From positions 22,491,501 to 22,555,500 of the forward strand of contig CM049400.1 in assembly GCA_026929865.2 (NCBI GenBank): a stretch of DNA of 64,000 nt. The letters run 5' to 3'. Positions 6,643-49,233 of the stretch are shown piece by piece (within the stretch, counting starts at the first letter, position 1; each line of letters opens with the position of its first letter). Below the pieces are notes generated by a model. The model saw only the letters and a list, made by a program, of their open reading frames with translations. It had not been told where the DNA came from and made no database searches. The DNA comes from Hyperoplus lanceolatus (taxonomy: Eukaryota; Chordata; Actinopteri; Uranoscopiformes; Ammodytidae). The position numbers and the translations under genes are program-made.

Positions 6643-25938
<19,296 letters not shown>

Positions 25939-34459: not shown

Positions 34460-34935
34460 ATGCACTTCTGGAGCTTCACACTCATTGCGCTGCTAGATCT
34501 GACTTTCCTCGCTGTGCTACATGGTAAGAACTTTGAGAAGTGCACAGAGTTGCCTGTTAGGATGTACTTCAGATGCACGTTTAGACAGAGTGTGGCAAGT
34601 GGAAAGAACAAGAAGAAACATAGTTTATCTAGACATTTGATGCTATTTGCAAAATAGGTCTCGAGCAGAAAGAATGCTTCAGCTCTCCATCCACCTGCAC
34701 ATGCACTCTCTAAGGAGGAATGAGGGTGACATGGAATGTGGCCACTTATTTATAGAAATTATGACTATGATGCTTTTTCATGTAGACCATGTAATTGTAT
34801 GTCATGTAGGTTTATATATGTGTTTATGTAGTGGAACAAAACACATGTTTCTGTCTGTTGCAGGTGCCAAATGGACCTACAATGGTAAGTCTGATAATGT
34901 TTTGCTCACAGTTTGCCAATGATAGATCAGAAAAG

Positions 34936-35021
<86 letters not shown>

Positions 35022-38000
35022 CTGCTAAAATGTTATCTTGTGTTGAAATTGGCTGTCCAAGTCCATGTGCACTTGTCTTGGTCACTCACTGTGGTGTTCT
35101 CTTCAACAAGCATTAACCAGTTGAGTGTTTTGATCAAGACGTGACCCCCACCCACCATGCCGGACTACGGGCAAGCACTTCTTCAACCATGACTGTCTCT
35201 TACATAAACTTTGCTCAGAGCATGACCTCTTGTCACTGCTTCTCAAAGGGATGTTGCATTCAGGGACTAAATATTAAAACTAGTATGGCTGGTGAAGCAG
35301 TTCAGTATAATAACAACTTCTTGACAAAAGCATTTTCAACTATTGAACAGTTATGAAAACATTTTTTCATTGCTAAAATGTTGTGTGCTCTTTTAAAGTT
35401 AACTTCATAGTTTGCTCATTCTTTCACACAGGCACATCAGCAGGAAGGAATAAGGGCAGTAATTTATGTCCAAATAAATAATTATTGCAAGAGGAAAATA
35501 TACTTGCTTAATTTGGACCTCTGAGGGAGGCTGTTCCATGTATTTAAACCTAAGCGCTAAATTTGCATTAATTGCAAATAGCTGTTCATGGATTCTGTTT
35601 ACACAGCTGTTTGTCTGTGTGTGGAAAAATAAAAACAACACCTAAACAAACAATGACCAATTATACCAGGAAAATTGCTTATTGCTAATATGTTCAAGTT
35701 AGAAAATACCTTCACAAATGTGGAAATGTAAATTATTATACACCCTGTGCTGATGAAGTGCATTATCCTGTAATAATGAATACAATAGGAAATCTGTTCC
35801 CAAAGTGGAAAGTGTGCTGATGACTTCCGATCAAGGATGCAATCTAAAAGAAAACCTCAGGCATCATGGTGGACTTCATCCTCAGTTACAGTGGAACCCT
35901 CATGAAGCTTGTCATAGTAAGTCCATTATTCCAGAGGGCTGGTAGAACTTCCTCTTGACAGGGTCACAGCTGAGTCATACAATTTATCTCCACCTTGACA
36001 CTCCACCCTGAGGCGGGGGCCGAACAGTGAACATAACATGGGAATAGAAGGAATAATGATGACTGTTGAAGTTTTCTCACTGTGCTCTACCAATGATGTT
36101 ATGGTAAACAATTGACTGTCATGCATATTTGACCAAGAACTGCCAAGGCCACTGAATGCCCTTGTTGAAGGATAGGCTGGGTCTAATTAAAACAGCAAAT
36201 TAAGTGGACACTGGGTAATTATTGCCATAAGAGTAACTTTAATTTCTTATTATAGTGGGGCGTTGCCTAGATTGAACATTGAGTTTTGCTTTACACATGT
36301 ATTCAGTGAGTTCACGGCTTCACTGGATGCCCTTTGGCTTGATTTGTCCAATCAATCCACATTTGTTTGGGAGCTGACAGTTGAGTCTGGGGCAGGCCTC
36401 CTGCTGCTTCATGCATATTTAACCATAGTCATCTGGCATATGGTGAATGGTGGATTTTTTAGATTCATTCTGGACAAATAATTATTAGATGAGTGCTTTG
36501 CTGCATTCAGGTCCTATCATGGCATTTTCTATGGTTGCTCCCGATTTGATAGGACACAATACTGATGATACTGAGATGCATCATGTTAAAAAAAACTCAG
36601 CATGGATCCTTACACTTCAGTCAATCCAATGAGTTTAAAAAATCAGATATTCATTTTTGCACAATTTTCCATTAAGATTTATTTAATTTTATTTGCATGG
36701 CCATTGTGCCTCATTGTCTCTGCAGACACTCTGTAGAGAGGCACCCCTTATACAGCTGTGGTCACTGAAAACTGCCTGCCTGATCTGTAAATGTGGCAAT
36801 TTTCGGTGTCCTGTGCTGTATTGAAACCTCTCATTTGGAGAAAGACAGCATTCTCACTGGCTCTCCCCGCAAACAGCAGCCCGGTTCTCATTTCTCCACT
36901 AGCCAAGCCAAGGGCCAAGAGCTGGGCCAGGGGCCTCTCCCATGCCGCCTTGAGTATAGATAATAATATTTCACTTCGATTACCTATAGAATGTTTCTTT
37001 GGAGCCTATTCAACTTCATTTTGGGACACGCTCTGCTCATTAACACTTTTGAAAAGAAATGCAGTATATCCCTGTAGTGTTCTCAGGTGAAATATGCTTT
37101 TTTGCCTTGGCATATACTGTATGTAGTATCACTGTAGCATAAGAAAGCATTGAGAATAAGGTGTGGGCCACATTGTGGTGCAGACATCTCCTAAAGCTGT
37201 TTTATAGGTAACAAAAGAGTCTTCGGACTCAATGGGATTTACCTGTATAAATAAAGGTTAGAACAATTTACATTGATGCTGTTGCAGGGCCGGAGGGGGA
37301 GCACCACTGGTCCAAGCATTATCCATACTGTGGTGGAGCTTTCCAGTCTCCAATAGACATCCAGTCAAAGCTGCTGAGGTTCGACCCAACCCTGCTTCCA
37401 ATCGAGCTTCAAAACTACAACCTGTCGCCCAATGAGCAACTTACTCTTGGAAATAATGGGCATTCTGGTGAGTATATCATCAGCGATATCGTCAAAAACA
37501 TACAGTGCTATATGTTGCATATTACACCTGTATATATTTTGTTCCTGCTGATAATCTTGTGCCCGGGTCTGTCGTTATTCGGTTGTTCATTGTGATGTTT
37601 TGTCTCGTGGTGTATTTACTGTTAATATGTTGAAAACTGAATAAAAATAATATAAAGAAAGTACAGTGCTTACAATTAAATGCCTATTTTCTACTCATTT
37701 CATCTATGTTACAAACTAAGCAAATATTTAAGAACAGATACATTTTACGCTGTATTTTGTTTTCTCTTGGGATCTGGAAAGTCTTTAAAGTATGCATTTA
37801 AATGAAATGGTTCCCTCGTTATTTTGGAGGTGTGTGTTCTTGCCGAAATTACGTACATTCTGGGTCAATTTATGAAAATGAAACGTGGATCCTGAGCAAT
37901 TTTCAAAAATAACTCTCTTATTATCTTAACTCTCCTTTCACCCAGAGCTCCACGTTTAGTCTGGGTATAACACAGTCTTAAATTTCTTTGTTAAATATAG

Positions 38001-41000
38001 CAATCAATACATAGAAAACCAACAATCTGTAAGGAGGAGGAATATGATTATTCCCACAAAATTACAGTTTTGATGAATGACTTTTCCTTCTTTGAAGGTA
38101 AGAAATGGTTTCAGAGAAAATTAGCTGAACTGTGGCAGTAAAGAGCTTGCAACTGGACTAGAGTTCATATTTGTTTGTTTGTTTTTCTAACATTTAAGCA
38201 TATTACTTTAGATGAGAAACTTCAGTGACACACTCTGTACAGCCAAACATGTACGTAGTGTCTGCCCTTTGTTGATGGCCATTCATTTTCTGTAATTTGT
38301 ATGTAAGTAAACTGTAAGCCACAGTCTCAGTTCAAAGACCAGACCAATGCTTATGTGTTCATGCCTGATGAGCCTCAACGCCACAAGTGTGAGTAACCTC
38401 ATGAGGGTGACGTGTGTTTGAAATGAGCTAACAGAGGTTTTTCCTCATTGGTCGTAGATTGACGGACATGTGGAACGAGCTCTGCGTCACTCCAACCATA
38501 GATAATCCAATATATCTCAAATATAGCTACCCATGTTCCGCAAAAGGACTGAAAAGGGTCAAGCTAATTTCCTCATTTAAGATAAAGTTGATGTCTCTTG
38601 ATCCCCTAAAGTAACGTGTGGTGTGTCTCTCAATCCGCAGTACAAATATCACTGCCTTCCAAGATGTACATCTCCAGCCTGCCTCATCGCTACACCGCAG
38701 CTCAACTCCATTTCCACTGGGGCTCCTATGGCCGAGCTGCCGGCTCAGAGCACACAGTGAACAGTAGGCAGTATGCAGCAGAGGTAAACTAAGCTAACAG
38801 CGCTTTATTCCCCCTCACTTTCGATGGTTTAAACCTTAGTATTTGTACTCTACTTGAGTATTTCCATTTCTGCTCCCACACAGTTTAAGTGCACTACATT
38901 TATCTGATGAATATCCATAGATACTTTGCAGATTGAAAATGTTGTATCAAACATTCTTTTTTTACAATATGATGCATTGTTATATTACCTTAACAGTATA
39001 TAAAGTTGATAAAATCAGCTCCACCAACGTAATGCATTATATAAAATATCTATAAAAAATATACGCAGTATGATAGACAGATACTCTGAATGGTGCTATT
39101 TTGCATAAGTACTTTTACCTTTGTATACTTTCAGGACATGTTGGTGTCAATACTTACTATACTTTCTACAGTGTGTGATTTTAGAGGGGTTTTTGTACTC
39201 TTACTTAGGTAGACTGGAAAAGGGTCGATGAGTGGCTAGTTATCAGCAAACAAGCTATTCATTTAGTCTTTTACTCATGTGCAGTATAAGGCAACAGCAC
39301 CTCTGGCACCAGTCAAATAATGTAATACTACTAAGTAAGACTTAACAACATTTGACTGGCAGAGGAATCTGGATGCCCCGACACCCTCAAAGTAACAGAC
39401 GCTGCTCAAGCTGCAGAAAGTCTCAAAAGCTCGGCGTCTGCATTTTACTGTTCCAGTTTCTTGGCCCTGCGGCAGTTATTTATTTGACATCTACTCGGCC
39501 ATCAGCTTGTTGTGCATCTTCCACTTTATTGTCTGCTTGACTGTAAAGTACAATTAAATGCTCGTACAAACCACGTTCTAATTAAAGAGAAGTAGAAGTT
39601 TTTAGCTATAAACAACTTGTGAGCCTTTAAAATCTTGACTACTGGGCTTATAAAGAGAGGACATTTGAAGTTTTAATTTTTTCCAAATATCTCTGATCAA
39701 TTTAGCATATCTGATCACATAGACATAGACACAAGACATCAGTTGAGTCAGCTTGAGTATTTACAGTATGACAGCATGTCTTATTTCTGCAGGGTTTGAA
39801 GGGATTAGAGTACCCGACTATTATGTGCTTTGGTTTTCATCCACTTTTGAAAAGAGGAGTGGCTGTCTGTGCTATTTAATGTGTCGAGCCCTGTAAGCAG
39901 TTTTCACACACTTTATATACTCTGCCACTTTAGTAAAGCAGACAGTACATTCTAAAAGTAAGATTCCCTTTTATGACATAAACAAAAGTGGGAAACTTTT
40001 TAAATATAATTTGATATCATTTGAATTACAGTTGGAGGAAGCTGAAATGGTTCGAAACCTGTGTGCACTTATGCGACCATGTGACCGGCTGCAGCACAGC
40101 CACATGTAAGGTGCTGCGGTTTGACCTGGCTTTCTGAGTGGACACGTTGAGAACTTGCATCTTTTCAAGTCTCTCCAGGCTCCCACAACCACAGTCCCTT
40201 GATGACAGGTTGTCTTGGAGGGATGGAATGATGGGAAATTGAACAATTCCCAGAAATAGTGCAAATGTCTACCTTAATTGCCAGACAGAACAAAGTCCGT
40301 AAATACAATGTTAAGCATATTTTCACAGAACATGCCTTTGGGTTGCACGGAATACACAACACAATACTGTCAGCAAAACAACTGACAGTCTGGTAGATAT
40401 TTATGGGCAATAATATAGACCCCCTACTGTAAAACATCTCCAGAGTTTCTCATAGGTGGCAATCAAACTGTACTAGAGATGATATGAACGTAATTCTTTA
40501 CATGCTCCCTAAAACTATACTGCCTGGCGTTCATACGAAGTATATACAGTATAACAGTTTTAACCTATCATATAACAAATTGATGCATTTAAATTGTTTT
40601 TATTCATGCAGTTGTTTTGAGGATTTGAGAATGATATAGATGTTTCCGATTTTCTTGTTATCTCAACATATGCATCGCTCTTTCCGTTGAGACCATTTCG
40701 TCAACAAGTACTAGCCAATAAAGACAGACTTAATCAATCATCTTAAGGTTTGGAGTACTTGCAACTGCACAAAACTTTTTTGGGTTGTACCACAGGGTCT
40801 TGACTGTTATTTTTCCTTTCTCCCACAGATGCATGTAGTGCACTTCAATTCAGACAAGTATCACAATATGTCCATGGCTGTAGACAAATCTGACGGCTTG
40901 GCTGTGCTGGGTGTCCTGATCGAGGTGAGACGTTGTTGCTGGGGAACAGTGAGGTGGAATTTCTGTGGAGCAGAATCATCTGACTGCGTTTGTCATACAG

Positions 41001-44000
41001 GTTGGAGAGTTCAATCAGGCTTTTGAGCAGTTTCTGAGGTTCATCAATGGTATCAAATACAAGGGTGAGTGTTAAATGGAGGATTTTCCTTGTGAACAGA
41101 ATTTCTTGTGTAGGTAACGGCATCAGCTACCTTGGTGATAAACAGGCACCTGACCTGTAAACTGTGGCAATTGAGAGTTTTTTCTTCAATATTTTATGTG
41201 TTTTGGGTCAAAATCTACAAATGACAATTTTTTTATTTCAACTGGCAGACCAGAGAATACAGATGCCTGGTTTCAACATCAGAGCGCTGCTTCCTGCACG
41301 TTTGGATGAGTATTATTGCTATGACGGGTCACTGACGACCCCTCCGTGCTATCCCAGTGTCCTGTGGACTGTGTTCAGGAATCATGTGACAATATCTCGC
41401 CAACAGGTGCTCTGACACTGTTGTACTCTTAAGCCGATTAGTTATTAGAACAAATAAGCCATTGTTAAACTGTCCTTTAAATTTCCAGACATTTTAATAT
41501 AGTCTGTACCTTACATTTAACTTTAATTGGTGTGGAAAAATCTCTTTGTTTTGTTGTGTTGTGTCTTTTTAGTTTCAGGCTTTGGCAACAACCCTCTACT
41601 CCTCCCATGCCCAGGACTCAGCCGCTGTGCCTCTAAAAGGCAACTACAGGAAACCGCAGCTCGCTGACAGCCGAGTTGTGCTTGTATCTTTTAAGGAGGG
41701 TAAGTATGGTCTTCAAAATGGGCTTGCTTTATTGTTGGAGCACGAGTGCAAAGGTAACTTGAATTGCATGGCCATTGCGCAGCTACAAACAGGACAAAAG
41801 GACAGCTTTGAGTGAAGTATGGGCATCTTTTTCTGCTGCTAAGCGAAGGGCTGTCGCTCTTGTATGGCACCACCTAGGGATGCACCGATCCACTATTTTT
41901 AGTTCCGATCCGATTCTGATATCTGGGTTTTGGATATCGGCCGATACCGATACTGTCCGATACGATATTCTAATTGTTATAAAAAAATTGTTGGTGGTGA
42001 GGTTATGTGTAAGGTTAGGATTGCTTAAGCAATTCTAATTTAAAAGAGCAAGATATATACACAAATATATATAGGTTTATCTTAAAGGCAGACTATGCAA
42101 TATTTTAATTAAAATATCAATTATAGAGTCACACAAAAATAATCCTTCTCAATGATCACTTCTGCCCCACTAGAATATGTGGTGGTGTGTTTGTCTGCAC
42201 AGTCTTCCTCTCTCTGGCTGTATTTTACATAGTATAATTTGTCACAGTGCAGAAGCCTCTCCACTTCATTGACTTGGGTTAGCTCACTGACTAACAAACT
42301 GGTACTGTATGTCTAACTAGAAAGTGGTGTCCTCTCTCCCTCCACCGAACGTCGGCCCATGCTCGCACAGGCTCGTTAGCTCTTTCATTAAATTTTTTAT
42401 TTTTATTTTTTTTTAAATATCGGAGCTGACAGTCCGATATCCGATACGCAGATTTCGGCCATATCGGACCCGATACCGATACTGGATCGGATCGCATCGG
42501 CCCCATCCCTAGCGTCACCTGCTGGCTGGTTGAGCTTTCACGTTAATGTGTTTCATAATCATCTTTAAAGGCATACCTAGTAATCTAATCTGGAAAATGT
42601 TTTGTCGTCCGCTAACGGCGATCTAAAAAGCCTGGCTCAGAACCAGCTGCTGTTATGTTTATGTTGACGTTACGGGGAAAAAGCCGGGCCGTGCACTGAG
42701 CTTCAACTATTGACGTGGTTAGTATAAACATAAACAAACGTTTGCCAAGTGTTCGCTGGAGATTACCTAGTATGCCTTTAAAGTTGATTGACTTCAATGA
42801 GCTTGTTGGAAAGTAGGCCATCGTTCAAGACACAACAAAAAAAGAAACAACATGCTCAGTCTGCAGCTTTTAATTTGTTTTTAAATGCCTACTTAAATGT
42901 GGTCTACTTGTCTACTGCACTGTATGGTATTTAAATCCATATAGTTGGGTATGAATGTGCATGTTCTCTTCACTTTCAACGCTCGCTACGCTTTTCTAAT
43001 GGCGCATGTGTTTTGACATGGCAGTGTGGAATCCACTGAGCGGCATTTGGCAGGCGACGGTTTTTGCTTTTAGTTTATCACTTCAGGCAGTGCTTGTGCA
43101 TGCTGGGCGTGAAGGGCCCATAGCCGAACCGAGGAACACCCCACACGGGCTGTGATATATTCAACAAGCTGTCATTGGCTGTGTGTCTGACGCAGGCCGA
43201 GGACTGCGCGGTATTCACACAGTCACATCTCCACTCACGAGGAGGCAAATTGTGAAGCAGCTGCTGGTGGGCGACCTAGCAGACCTGGCTGATGAAGGGC
43301 TCTACCGGCTCCTACCCAGTGGCTCAGAGAAGCTCCGTGTCAGCATGAAGGAAGACCTCAAGGACCTGCAGAGTGAGAACCGCTCCAAATCCAAACAACA
43401 AACGCTGAATCCGTCCCTGAGAAAGAAGGGCCAGACCAACCGCTCCGTGGGAAAGTCCGGGCTGGCTGAAGATGAACTGAGCTACGTCTCGCTGGAGCAC
43501 AGGGTTTTCCATCAGCTCAAACTGTCCCACAGAAAGAACCAGCTGGTCCAGGCTCTCAGAGATGCAGTTTTCCCCGAGCTCAACCTCAAGAGCTACCTGG
43601 ACTGTAAATCAGACTTGGCCCTCCCCTCCATCAGACATATCCTCCGAGGACGGCCAACGGATGAGGCGTTGGAGTTAGATCGCTCTCTGACAAAAGCCTT
43701 GATGAATCAGGGGAATATGTCCACAGCACTCAAGCACATATTGCCAATGACACACCATGGCAGTCTCTCCCCTGTCACTGTTCCCAGGAAACCACAAAGC
43801 CAGAGTTATCCACATCCTTGGGTTTTGCCAATGGAGTGGGAAGACTAGTAGAGAGAGATTCCAGACATAGCTGAGACTCACATTATGTCACTTTCTGTGG
43901 TAGACATCAGATGAAAGAGTAGTTTTGAAGCCAAGCCCTGCATTCCTTCGACGTATTGTATTTAATATTAAATAATTTCTCCATTGCGTGTATAATAATA

Positions 44001-47000
44001 CATGATACGATGTCTGAGAAAAGACTGAAGTATGAGTTAATTAACTGCAGTTATTGATTTTGCAAACATATGCATATGCATCACCATCAACTGTGCTCAG
44101 TACTGTAATATTCTGAGAGATAAAGCTAAACTCATTATGTAGATTTCTGTCAAATCTGCAAAACTTTTGCGCATTAATTTTCCAATGGGCTTTAGGCGTG
44201 CTTGCATAATGTTGCCCTGCCATACAATGCTTCAGATTGAGACAATGTTTCGTGCATATACACGTTTAATGCAGTACACACAATGTCAGGCAAAGAATAT
44301 TGATAGTGTTATACTGTATGCCAAGTGCAGTTCTATAGTAATTGTGGAGCTATGCTAGTAATTATTGTCTTGCACAATATAGAGATGCAACATAAACCAA
44401 AAGAATTTGCAAGAGCTCAAGCGCTTTAAGTCACAATCCTGTCTCATCTTCCAATTTGTTCCTCTGTTCCAAATGCCATTTACTCTATAAGTAAAGAAAC
44501 AGCGGCTGTACAGAGAAAACTATTTTCAATAAAAGCATTTTAAAATGAAGACTATGTGGAAAATGTCTCCCCTACTGCACTGGCACATTTCTCTGTGAAC
44601 TTGCACGACTGATATTACTGTTGAAAATGTATTATTTTTCAGTAACGCATTGGACTGAAGTCTCTTCCTGCACAGAGTGAGCAAAATAACCCAGAAATAA
44701 AAGTAGCATTATAATATAGACTCTCTTCATACATGTTCAGTTAGACATGTTAAGACAATAAGCTTCTGAGGTATGCGAAAGCCAGACATCAGAGAAAGGG
44801 ATTGTATGTGATTTAAAGGTTTTAAACATCGGATGTCCACAGTTCCTGTTTTGTGTAACCAGGTGGAGGAAAAGGGGAACATTCTGTACTGTGCTTTTTT
44901 TCTTATATGTCAGCAGTCCAAGAACCTGGTAGATCGAATTCACAATAGGTTGACATATAACATTTTATTTGCTACATCTTTTTCATATTAAAAGTCAGTA
45001 GTCATTCCTCAAGTTAGAATATTTCAATGAAGACTCAATAAGGGACCAACGGGGATCGTGTGGGTGTGAGAAGGAGAGAATAATTCTATACTGTCAGCTT
45101 GTGTCATGAAAAGACTTAATTTGTTCAACAAACATGAAAAAAATATTTTCTTTGTGTTGTGTTTCATAGAAACCCACTTTAACACTTTGATTCTTTTTCC
45201 CCTTGAATGGCATCATATCTGAAGTGTCTGAAGTGTTTCTCTTTGACTTTCATTTTCACCTTTCGCTCTCTCTTTTTCCCTGTCACTCAGCTGAACTATC
45301 TTGGATAGAGACTGGTATGTTCCTTCTGCATATTTTCTGACTTTTTTGTATTTCCTCTTCAATACCGTAACAGCATTGGCGGATGCTCCATTGTTAGACC
45401 TCTAACATCTCATTTGAGGTTTGAACAAATTTGCATTCTGTATGTCTGAATTAATAACAGAAAATAGTAGCTTTTCCAACATCAGAAAGCATAGCTTCAA
45501 ATGTATAGCTAATACTAGAAGACCAAACTGAACTATAAACGGAATCTTCACATAACAAATATTTCTCATACCACCTTAACAGTACCTTTACTAAAACAAG
45601 TGAGTTTTTTACACACACACATACAGTATGCAGTGTGCTTGCCCTAACACCAAATTAAAACATAGAGAAAAAGGGTAAAATTCTCTATCACACAATCCTT
45701 TACTGATTCTTTTGCTCCATGCCTTGCAGGTTTACTGGTTCCTGTACTAGTGGGCTCTGCAGTGGGACTTGTTCTTATTGTCTCTTTACTGTGCTGTTTA
45801 TTCAGGCAAAAAAGGTAAGCAAAGGGCAAAACAAAAGCAAACAAGACAAGATGAGGAGTCATATGGAGGTTATTTCAAAAGAATGGTTAACCTTAATTGA
45901 CCCTCACAACTGGGGTTAAAGTTTTTAAAAAGAATAATCAAATACTTTATAGGGGTTTCTGGGAACATTTACTCACTTATCCCACTCTTCACCCACGACA
46001 GTGTAGCTTTGCATAAATTACGAGCCCTTTTGTATAACAGTGGTTTCCTATAAAAGTTGTGCCCTGGAGTATATTTTCCTGGGCTTGCATTATGTTTTTC
46101 TTTTTGTTGTACATATTTGAGAAAGCATTTGAGAATTCCATTTTACAATGTAGAAAACCGGCTACAGTAGAAAGTGTAAAAGTCACACTTATTCATAGCA
46201 TTTTTGTTTTTTATGAAGCTGTTAATATAGCGGCATAGGCCTACATTGGATGAATGAGTGTTTGCTTTGACCGTTAACAACTGAACAAGCAAGATGATAC
46301 ACCTGCTCATCTGCTCAGGTTTTAGTATGCGAGAAACTGAATCCATAGAGGAACCTTCAGTGTTAGTGCTTTGGTAGAACCTGTAATAACTTCTACGTAC
46401 AGTGTAAAACGTGTTGAGAGGGTGAAAATGTACATCAATGTGTTATGTAACTTCGTTGGCTTAACTGCTGATTTGAAAGTAGTATAGAATGAAAGATTAG
46501 AAAATGACTTCTAAGAAAGACACGGCTGACTTTACAAAATATAGAAATAATAAAATGTTTTAAGGAGACTGGTCCATTCAGAAATAAAACAGGGGCATTT
46601 TCTTCTTTAAAAAACAAACAAATAAAAAAGGTATCCAGCATTAAAACATTACAGATTCTCTTTGGGAATAACAATAATGACTTGTCCCAATGTCATACAA
46701 CATACATGCATCTTTAGACACTACCGACAGACACCATAAATCCCTAAATTCAACAAGACGTTCTGCTTTCAAAATGTAAAGATCAGGATTATGTAATATG
46801 TAAATAAAAGGCACTCCACAGGTAAAATGTGCTTTGAAGCTCTCTCATCTGCGGGTATCACTTTGTTTAATTTCATGTCTTTTGGAAGTGAAAAGCTAAG
46901 TGACAGTCTTGTCACAGATGGGTTGTTGTCAAACGTTCCTCTTATCTTCAAATGCTCCCTCTGCATCTCTTTTTTCCAGCTTATACCATAATTAATCAAT

Positions 47001-47412
47001 TTTTCCTTACACCAGCTGCAATTCTCTGTTTGTTCATGGCCAACCTCTTGAGTGAAGGGAGATGTGTATCTGTTGTGGGAAGTGTGGATACATTAAAAAA
47101 AATTACAACCCTATAGCTTTTAATTGCATACAACACTTTAAAATGTGGCCGAATATGTCATGGAACTGAATAACAAACATTGTTGTGATGGCAAAATACA
47201 CCTCAGTAAGTTATACTCTATGGGCAGGAAATACATTTACACATTAAAGTTGAACATTTCACTTAACTCTGCTCATCACATGTAGGTTTATATAGAGGTA
47301 TAATCTAATGTTCTTTTTTTCTTTTTTCATCAGAGCTTGTGTTGAACAGGACAAAAGCAAAAGTGTGGAATACAACATTGGAGAAAGAGACGAATACGGC
47401 TCAAGAGTATAG
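34460..47412 (+). CDS. ca12: Carbonic anhydrase 12, membrane-anchored form (11 exons, 346 aa)
   Basis: CA12 catalyses reversible CO2 hydration at the cell surface. Exons: 34460-34523, 34864-34884 (21 nt), 37288-37467, 38641-38783, 40829-40924, 41001-41064, 41249-41406, 41573-41699, 45291-45314, 45730-45814, 47334-47412; phases join throughout. A signal peptide ([16 protein letters not shown]) precedes the alpha-CA domain. Zinc ligands are His112 and His114 (LHFHWGS) and His138 (MHVVHFN). His87 (NNGHSV) is the proton shuttle, SLTTPPC holds the Thr gate, and Cys43-Cys223 would form the usual disulfide. A juxtamembrane segment (AELSWIETG) leads to a helix at about 294-315 ([17 protein letters not shown], with a GSAVG motif) and a short tail ending GSRV. 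Length and order match CA12, and its place beside usp3 agrees with human synteny. CA14 is the nearest alternative. Confidence 0.9.
34938..35020. repeat. (TA)n microsatellite
   Basis: About 80 bp of TA dinucleotides with one small interruption, in ca12 intron 2 just after the 21-nt exon. The rest of that intron (to 37287) is AT-rich with no gene that I can support. Confidence 0.95.
41875..42511. mobile_element. hAT-like non-autonomous element in ca12
   Basis: The ends TAGGGATGCACCGATCC and GGCCCCATCCCTA are an inverted repeat. Flanks GCACCACC (41867-41874) and GCGTCACC (42512-42519) are an 8-bp target duplication with two changes. The interior is rich in CCGATA / TATCGG words near both ends. 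Non-coding. It lies between the last catalytic ca12 exon and the alternative terminal exon. Confidence 0.82.
43196..43848 (+). CDS. ca12: Candidate alternative terminal exon of ca12 encoding a 217-residue soluble tail
   Basis: A continuous open frame follows an acceptor (CTGACGCAG at 43187-43195) and is in phase with the donor at 41699; joined, the product would be 501 aa. The frame begins [20 protein letters not shown] and continues with a leucine-rich [19 protein letters not shown] segment, a basic Ser/Lys/Arg stretch, three N-glycosylation sequons (NRS, NRS, NMS), one Cys and a tryptophan-containing end (MEWED). There is no hydrophobic anchor, so this ending would yield a secreted enzyme. 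An AATAAA at 44525-44530 could serve its transcript. I recognise no family. The polypyrimidine tract is weak. An upstream in-frame GTG is not a plausible independent start. Confidence 0.55.
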
Positions 47413-49233
47413 CTCATCATCCTGCACCTCACTTTCAAGTCATCCACTGAAACTTAAACAAGACCATGTGACATCGTCCTTCTGCATTGCCCGTCCTGTG
47501 TGTAAAATTGGAGTCAGTTTTGACATTTGTTTAAGTAGATCACACGATTGAGTTTGCATGCAGCTCTGGGGTTTTGTGAAGCACTCTTGTTTTTTGTTTT
47601 GGTTCTCAGGTCACAGTCTGGATGTCCTTTGCTGTGCTGTGGCATGCAGGCATGGTAGGCCTCTGCGCTGGACTTTTGAAATGGTGTTTTATGCTGTAGC
47701 CTTTGACTTCTTCCTTAGGGCAAGAGGAACAGCTGTCCTCTCTAATTCCCCTTTATTTATCCGACGTGATGTGGTGAGTGTCTTAAGAAGAGCTCGACAA
47801 CAAAAAAAACACTTCCAGGCAAACACAGTCAGGCCAGAGAGCTGAACTGGTCAGAATCCTGGGTCAAGACAGATCATGGCCACCGTTCCCTTCAGCTGCC
47901 CTGGCATGGCGGAGAGACCGACCACAGTCCAAACAATAGGGGGGTAGGAGTCGACAGGCATCCCTGATGGTAGGGTGGCCTGAAAAGGATGGGCGATACC
48001 ACATTTCCACCAACCCTGTACTTAGATCTGCTCTATGGATTTCATAATAAAAGGGCGCTTTGCTCCGTACAAACACAGAAACACACAGTTCCGTCCCTGT
48101 GAATAATGCTGAGTAAAGAAAGGCTTTTGTCTTTTCAGGCTGAACGTGGGCTGACCCCTGACCCTTGTGCGCCAGCCTGATCACAAGACAAACTCCCCGG
48201 CACTCCTGAGAGCTTCTCAGTTAGACTGTAGGCCGCACAGTTATTGTAACCAAAGGACTGCTATGACATCATCACCTCATCCTCACAGGGTTTCCCTCGT
48301 CCATTTCATTATCCTCTCCTCTGCCTTTATTCTAGTCAGATGTTTCATAGGGATCGTATTAGCTGCTACATAAGTTCATGATCAGGGTTCAGTATTTGCA
48401 TTCTCACGGCATAGAAGGCGACACATTTGCCTGTAGGACCAGACTTTAGATACTGTTAGATGAATTAAGAAGTAAAAGGAGGAAATTAAATGATAACAGA
48501 AGCATAGGTTTCTTCCCAATTAAGTGTTATGGCAGTAGATGCCATTCTGCACAGGCTAGCTATCATATCAAAGTACTAATTCATTGAAACTCATGTCCTC
48601 GTTACACTGTTGGTATAGGCCTACTGTTGCCAAATTCTTTATTTTTTAAATGTGTCACTATGTGTTTCAACTGTAATTGTTAGGCTATATTTATTAGATA
48701 CATTGCATTTATGAAAGTGTTGTTACGTTGTGTATTATATGTGTAAATAATTGCTGCCTCATAATAAAAAACAAAAATAGTAATGTTTTTTTTTCTCTTT
48801 CTCGTAAAAAAGTTTTCATTGTATTTTATAATTCTTAATGGCAAATCCAAAGTCTTGTGGTGGATCCTTAGCCTTAACCAAAAAGACCTATTATGACAGT
48901 CCATAAACAAAAAAATAATTTAAAAAAAGTGCAATTCGGTTTTACATTGGCCCATTATGACACAGTTTGCACACTTCAACTGACCCCCGAGACTCAACGC
49001 ATGCTGCCTACGACCATATTCTTGTTTGCACTTTGACCGTTGGACAGTACCGCCATCTTGTGGCTGCCTACTTGAAGTCATGGACATATAAAGAACAACA
49101 ACAGTACGTTTTACTTCCGGGTCTTTAATATTTGAGTTTGTCTTACGTGGGGTTTGAGCTTTCTTTATGGGTCCATGGGTTTGAGTGCTCGCTGCAGTCC
49201 AAACCTGCAGGTGTTATACTTGTCGTTTTCGTG
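47413..49233. other. Spacer between ca12 and man2c1
   Basis: It should hold the ca12 3' UTR (an AATAAA lies at about 48763) and the man2c1 5' UTR and promoter on the right. No other exon was recognised; the short frames at 47558-47845 and 47864-48184 show no domain. Confidence 0.45.

Follow-up and report, generated by a model that had tools for sequence, protein, structure and literature searches.

Extracellular carbonic anhydrase (CA) matters in fish for the handling of CO2, pH and carbonate. Among the described systems closest to the locus reported here is CA XII of the pufferfish (Takifugu rubripes), which, according to the accessible text of its description, was cloned from brain by 5' and 3' RACE as a 490-aa protein with a 22-residue signal, a sequon at 149 and a likely Cys21/Cys201 pair; it was called transmembrane by its authors, who inferred a 22-residue cytoplasmic tail (PMC5877703). 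A secreted CA12 has been reported from the seminal vesicle fluid of Corydoras aeneus, zebrafish CA12 is described as having no transmembrane domain, and the published account of these secreted catfish and zebrafish enzymes is loss of the anchor in an ancestor (PMC12091868, accessible text). A different C-terminal arrangement is found in CA VI of fish, which carries a pentraxin domain and is secreted and pentameric (PMC5723433, PMC9032886, accessible text). Outside the carbonic anhydrases, the domesticated Ty3/gypsy (metaviral) capsid genes PNMA and SIRH/RTL are described, in the accessible part of the source, as genes of their own with a capsid region free of introns (PMC11011659).

Here we describe a ca12 gene of Hyperoplus lanceolatus in which an exon with partial homology to a Gag capsid stands upstream of intact membrane exons. 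The analysis covered a 64,000-nucleotide stretch of contig CM049400.1, referred to below as the window.

Organization of the ca12 locus

A fish ca12 gene was located on the + strand of the window, with eight core exons that run from 34460 to 41699 and join as an open frame (Table 1). The gene is carbonic anhydrase XII (CA12): PF00194 matched in both core exons scanned, and the nearest solved structure to the 263-residue core was human CA XII (320 bits), with CA XIV second (278 bits). The motifs LHFHW, SEHTV and NNGHS were read by eye in the core, and their residues are taken by us to be the CA zinc ligands and the proton-shuttle histidine. By eye, the neighbouring frames are presumably FBXL22 and USP3 on the left side and MAN2C1 and NEIL1 on the right, a neighbourhood in agreement with human synteny. 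The signal-peptide-like label of exon 1 comes from a hydrophobic-start scan rather than from a dedicated predictor.

Table 1. Features of the ca12 locus (window coordinates)
Feature	Position	Strand	Basis
ca12 exon 1	34460..34523	+	Signal-peptide-like start; inferred from scan (hydrophobic start, in-phase donor)
ca12 core exons 2-8, overall	34864..41699	+	GT/AG borders, open frame
ca12 exons 2-5	34864-34884, 37288-37467, 38641-38783, 40829-40924	+	
ca12 exons 6-8	41001-41064, 41249-41406, 41573-41699	+	
Probable alternative last exon	43196..43848	+	217-residue tail and stop; frame and phase
Gag-capsid-homologous stretch, tail residues 56-168	43360..43698	+	Profile (55.6 bits), hhalign, genome matches
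Putative 3' untranslated region	43849..44701	+	AATAAA at 44528, 44696
Stalk exon of membrane form	45291..45314	+	24 nt, in phase; inferred
Transmembrane exon	45730..45814	+	Hydropathy 2.77, in phase
Last exon of membrane form, coding part	47334..47412	+	Cytoplasmic tail and stop

Exon 8 (41573-41699), the last of the catalytic exons, has a phase-1 end followed by GTAAGT. Behind an acceptor AG at 43194-43195 lies an in-phase frame of 217 residues, closed by TAG TAG at 43846-43851, and joining of the eight core exons to this exon gives a protein of 501 aa. The first-pass annotation had proposed an exon in phase with the donor at 41699, a 501-aa product without the anchor, and a basic, sequon-containing tail, and all of this was borne out: the tail has a pI of 9.74, three sequons (N346, N366 and N458, in the numbering of the 501-aa form) and no hydrophobic span, its peak 19-residue hydropathy being 0.64 against 2.77 for the exon at 45730. 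That exon had also been placed correctly downstream of the tail exon, and the membrane exons are intact and in phase. Joined to the core they add 54-62 residues, including a hydrophobic segment, and give 338 aa, or 346 aa when the 24-nt stalk exon is included. As both the tail exon and the membrane exons are in phase, the gene can encode either ending.

Several properties of the exon at 43196 were then scored. Its open frame starts at 43156 and comprises 230 codons in all; when the bases of 43001-44000 were shuffled 2000 times, a stop-free run of at least that length turned up twice (three + frames; dinucleotides not kept). G+C is ~55% across the exon versus 36-45% for most windows of the surrounding intron. 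The pyrimidine fraction of its acceptor, 0.56, is the lowest among the ten main acceptors scored (0.62-0.94 for the others; the exon 2 acceptor was left out). A home-made codon score, for which 838 codons of the window served as the training set, was 0.28 for the tail frame against 0.23 in the next frame, and so adds little on coding status; over the final ~50 codons it fell below zero. On its + strand the window holds 81 copies of AATAAA, so that the two in the putative 3' untranslated region are not above chance. Inside the exon, a donor-like site at 43373 (AGA/GTGAGA) keeps phase after 177 nt, so that residues 1-59 of the tail may be used as a cassette.

Two further observations concern other parts of the window. 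On the - strand at 6646-7110, in a frame taken to be the end of USP3, the conserved part continues into ~90 residues with a high content of Ala, Val, Asp and Thr. On the + strand, the frames at 3-353 and 17744-18019 share 'SPDLNTI/SRPQYNS'-like and 'SPSNLM' stretches, which to our eye resemble the ends of Tc1/mariner transposases.

Gag capsid homology of the tail

A search of the 807-Mb genome of the same species with the tail returned 17 other matches at 29-36% identity, all inside tail residues 44-175. These loci sit in open frames of 205-1999 residues. Five frames were examined whole (L002-L006), and a CCHC-type zinc knuckle was found in four of them (L003, L004, L005 and L006), with a DTG protease-like motif in L004 and L006; adjoining the L006 copy, a reverse transcriptase (PF00078, E 3.3e-28) and an RNase H (PF17917, E 9e-29) were detected. 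Judged from these domains, the matching loci would be Ty3/gypsy-type elements.

A gag profile was built on seven of the 17 loci, near-identical copies being excluded. It matched tail residues 56-168 with 55.6 bits, where the best of 2000 shuffles reached 5.4, and across the 1681 stop-to-stop stretches of the window the tail was its sole match. Alignment of the tail to gag by hhalign gave a probability of 97.2 over residues 72-166. By sequence comparison, tail residues ~56-168 are thus homologous to the Ty3/gypsy-type Gag capsid of the same genome, the class of capsid from which Arc, too, was domesticated. The homology ceases near a QG that presumably opens the major homology region. The tail contains neither the second capsid lobe nor a zinc knuckle and holds a partial capsid, a fragment. 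General databases were silent on both sides of the comparison: Pfam gave no credible match for the tail (E 0.16 or worse) and phmmer against the PDB none up to E 10, and for the seven gag stretches no match was credible in Pfam (best E 0.081) or among PDB chains (best E 1). The alternative ending put forward in the first-pass annotation holds in its anatomy, an alternative last exon that skips the anchor; its description of the tail as simply novel does not, about half of the tail being Gag-homologous.

Derivation of the whole tail from gag was also considered and is not supported: ~55 residues at its start and ~45 at its end have no demonstrated source. With a profile built on the N-terminal part of Gag, tail residues 1-70 reached 0.1 bits, behind 234 other sequences, nearly all of them shuffles. 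Pairwise shuffle tests of an N-terminal Gag origin with 14 loci gave 1/500 for the near-identical L006-L008, 8/500 for L004, 20/500 for L016 and 31-285/500 for the other nine; some of these scores are suggestive. Residues 1-69 had no other match in the genome search, and for the tail end, compared pairwise with 15 loci, the lowest value was 23/500. AlphaFold, run on the tail without an alignment, returned helices only in a poor model (mean pLDDT 48.7), and a scan of viral contigs found no relatives usable in structure prediction.

Copy number and age of the exon

When the genome was searched at the DNA level for copies of 43196-43848, only the self-match was obtained, and no other copy was found for the flanks (42516-43195 and 43849-44540). 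The same intron contains an interspersed repeat of ~640 bp at 41875-42515, for which at least 46 further matches were recorded (39 places and 7 shorter pieces), a lower bound given that 40 of 2004 candidates were scored; identities were 80-100%, most of them 81-93%, among the matches listed. The copy search therefore works on this intron. Over the window the profile, which covers gag only, showed no gag-like remnant besides the exon. By these searches, the partly gag-derived exon is single-copy and probably no longer mobile.

A tree built on the shared block gave the tail a branch of 1.24 substitutions per site, against 0.48 for the next longest terminal branch. In a neutral simulation that ignored indels, the share of runs with an open frame was 13% at 0.1 change per base, 2.3% at 0.2 and 0.1% at 0.5. 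Some of the 1.24 may predate the insertion, which makes the long stop-free branch an argument rather than a test. Taken together, the absence of another DNA copy from the genome search and the long stop-free branch suggest an old, retained insertion.

Comparison with pufferfish CA XII

The product of this gene has a sequon at N149 and cysteines at 43 and 223; subtraction of 22 from the latter gives the Cys21/Cys201 positions of the pufferfish protein. Of the pufferfish primers, the one for 3' RACE and the two for qPCR match in core exons, at 24/28, 16/20 and 17/20 bases, respectively; with the start primer, exon 1 was not found. When four pufferfish primers were compared with exon 43196 and the 3' end, 22, 83, 117 and 500 of 1000 shuffles were as good; the first of these values is marginal and the other three fall short even of that, although one of the three primers lies in core exon 41573-41699. 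The two records thus agree in the gene (core primer matches), in the positions of the sequon and disulfide, and in total length, which is similar. They differ in that Cys355/Cys358 of the pufferfish protein have no counterpart here and in that the latter is transmembrane by description; gag is unmentioned in the accessible text (PMC5877703). Provided that the core of the pufferfish protein has the same end point, ~206 residues lie beyond it, a number near the 217 of the tail and far above the 54-62 that the membrane exons add. A RACE clone of 490 aa makes use of such an exon likely, and given this record a tail isoform is probably in databases already.

On its accessible text, the transmembrane assignment in PMC5877703 stands beside a length of 490 aa that does not fit the 338-346-aa membrane form of the present gene, and the pufferfish record may deserve re-reading.

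Discussion

Our preferred reading, to which we give a probability of about 70%, is that exon 43196 serves ca12 as an alternative last exon, its centre derived from a Ty3/gypsy-type gag, and that its use distinguishes a secreted from an anchored CA12. Splicing to this exon, secretion, conservation and function are all parts that we infer. A gag of this type would have become fixed in the ca12 intron upstream of the membrane exons. Splicing of 41699 to 43196, with the transcript ending beyond the exon, would give a secreted CA with a helical, basic, partly capsid-derived tail, skipping of the exon would give the usual anchored CA12, and which of the two the gene makes would depend on the last exon used.

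The exon could instead be an intronic gag fragment, a fossil or a species-specific insertion, that lies outside ca12 splicing and whose open frame is left-over gag coding. The weak acceptor (0.56 pyrimidine), a codon score that is indecisive and negative at the tail end, and polyadenylation signals not above chance are all consistent with this. However, the lack of a close copy in the genome and of a gag-like remnant elsewhere in the window argues that the insertion is not recent, and stops would be expected in an old fossil, yet the frame is open; we consider this explanation unlikely. Much less probable still is use of 43196-43372 as a cassette of 177 nt (59 residues) through the donor at 43373, which would leave the gag part mostly intronic and yield a membrane CA12 with a longer stalk. 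That donor does keep phase to the stalk or membrane exon, and clear gag homology begins close to it, but it has an A at -1 and a further 158 open codons follow. Just as improbable, in our view, is that the exon forms part of an independent domesticated gag gene, which would lie within the ca12 intron, have a promoter of its own and start at an ATG near 43345. Known domesticated capsid genes do stand alone, with an intronless capsid region (PMC11011659, accessible text), but dozens of open codons precede this ATG, in phase with ca12. The pufferfish length of 490 aa, as far as the accessible text goes, bears on all three: it fits the exon and its fusion to the core, and is too long for the cassette form (PMC5877703).

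The tail form would resemble Corydoras CA12 in being a fish CA12 that is secreted (here predicted), carries a long extension at its C-terminus and lacks a membrane segment. The Corydoras extension, according to the accessible text, has an eight-residue repeat (residues 441-600), and its authors infer anchor loss (PMC12091868); no tandem repeat was found here across 40000-47500, and the anchor exons are present. As secreted fish CA12 was thus already in print, the first-pass view that a fish ending without the anchor would be new has to be modified; what would be new is the partial gag origin of the tail and a gene with two ends. With non-mammalian CA VI the predicted tail form shares the replacement of the membrane end by an added C-terminal domain, a likeness of layout alone, since that domain is a constitutive pentraxin (PMC5723433, PMC9032886, accessible text) and here a gag-derived part is present and both endings are encoded; Pfam found no pentraxin in the tail. 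Like PNMA and SIRH/RTL, the exon is a single-copy host sequence of Gag capsid descent. In the accessible account those are separate genes (PMC11011659), unlike the partial capsid here, which lies in a C-terminal exon that would belong to an enzyme whose start resembles a signal peptide. Among the titles and abstracts listed from the literature searched, with subscription papers mostly outside it, no gag-derived part was reported in a carbonic anhydrase.

The most likely role of the tail would be retention or clustering of the soluble enzyme in the extracellular space, either through self-association of the capsid-like helices or through binding of its positive charge to acidic matrix. Such clustering would be comparable to that of secreted fish CA VI, whose pentraxin tail makes the pentamer. 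A broader scenario is offered tentatively, as one we doubt more than we believe: in an early teleost, ca12 would have gained an alternative last exon by capture of a gag capsid region, the capsid helices would multimerise the secreted enzyme, and otophysans would later have lost the anchor exons and retained just a tail form. A gene with both ends suggests, against the accessible account of the catfish and zebrafish enzymes (PMC12091868), an alternative-exon stage before their anchor loss. In the broader scenario, a metabolic enzyme would contain a capsid-derived domain that acts in the secretory pathway. On the preferred reading, the capture would have moved the workplace of an ancient enzyme by swapping a membrane end for a tail partly of viral type.
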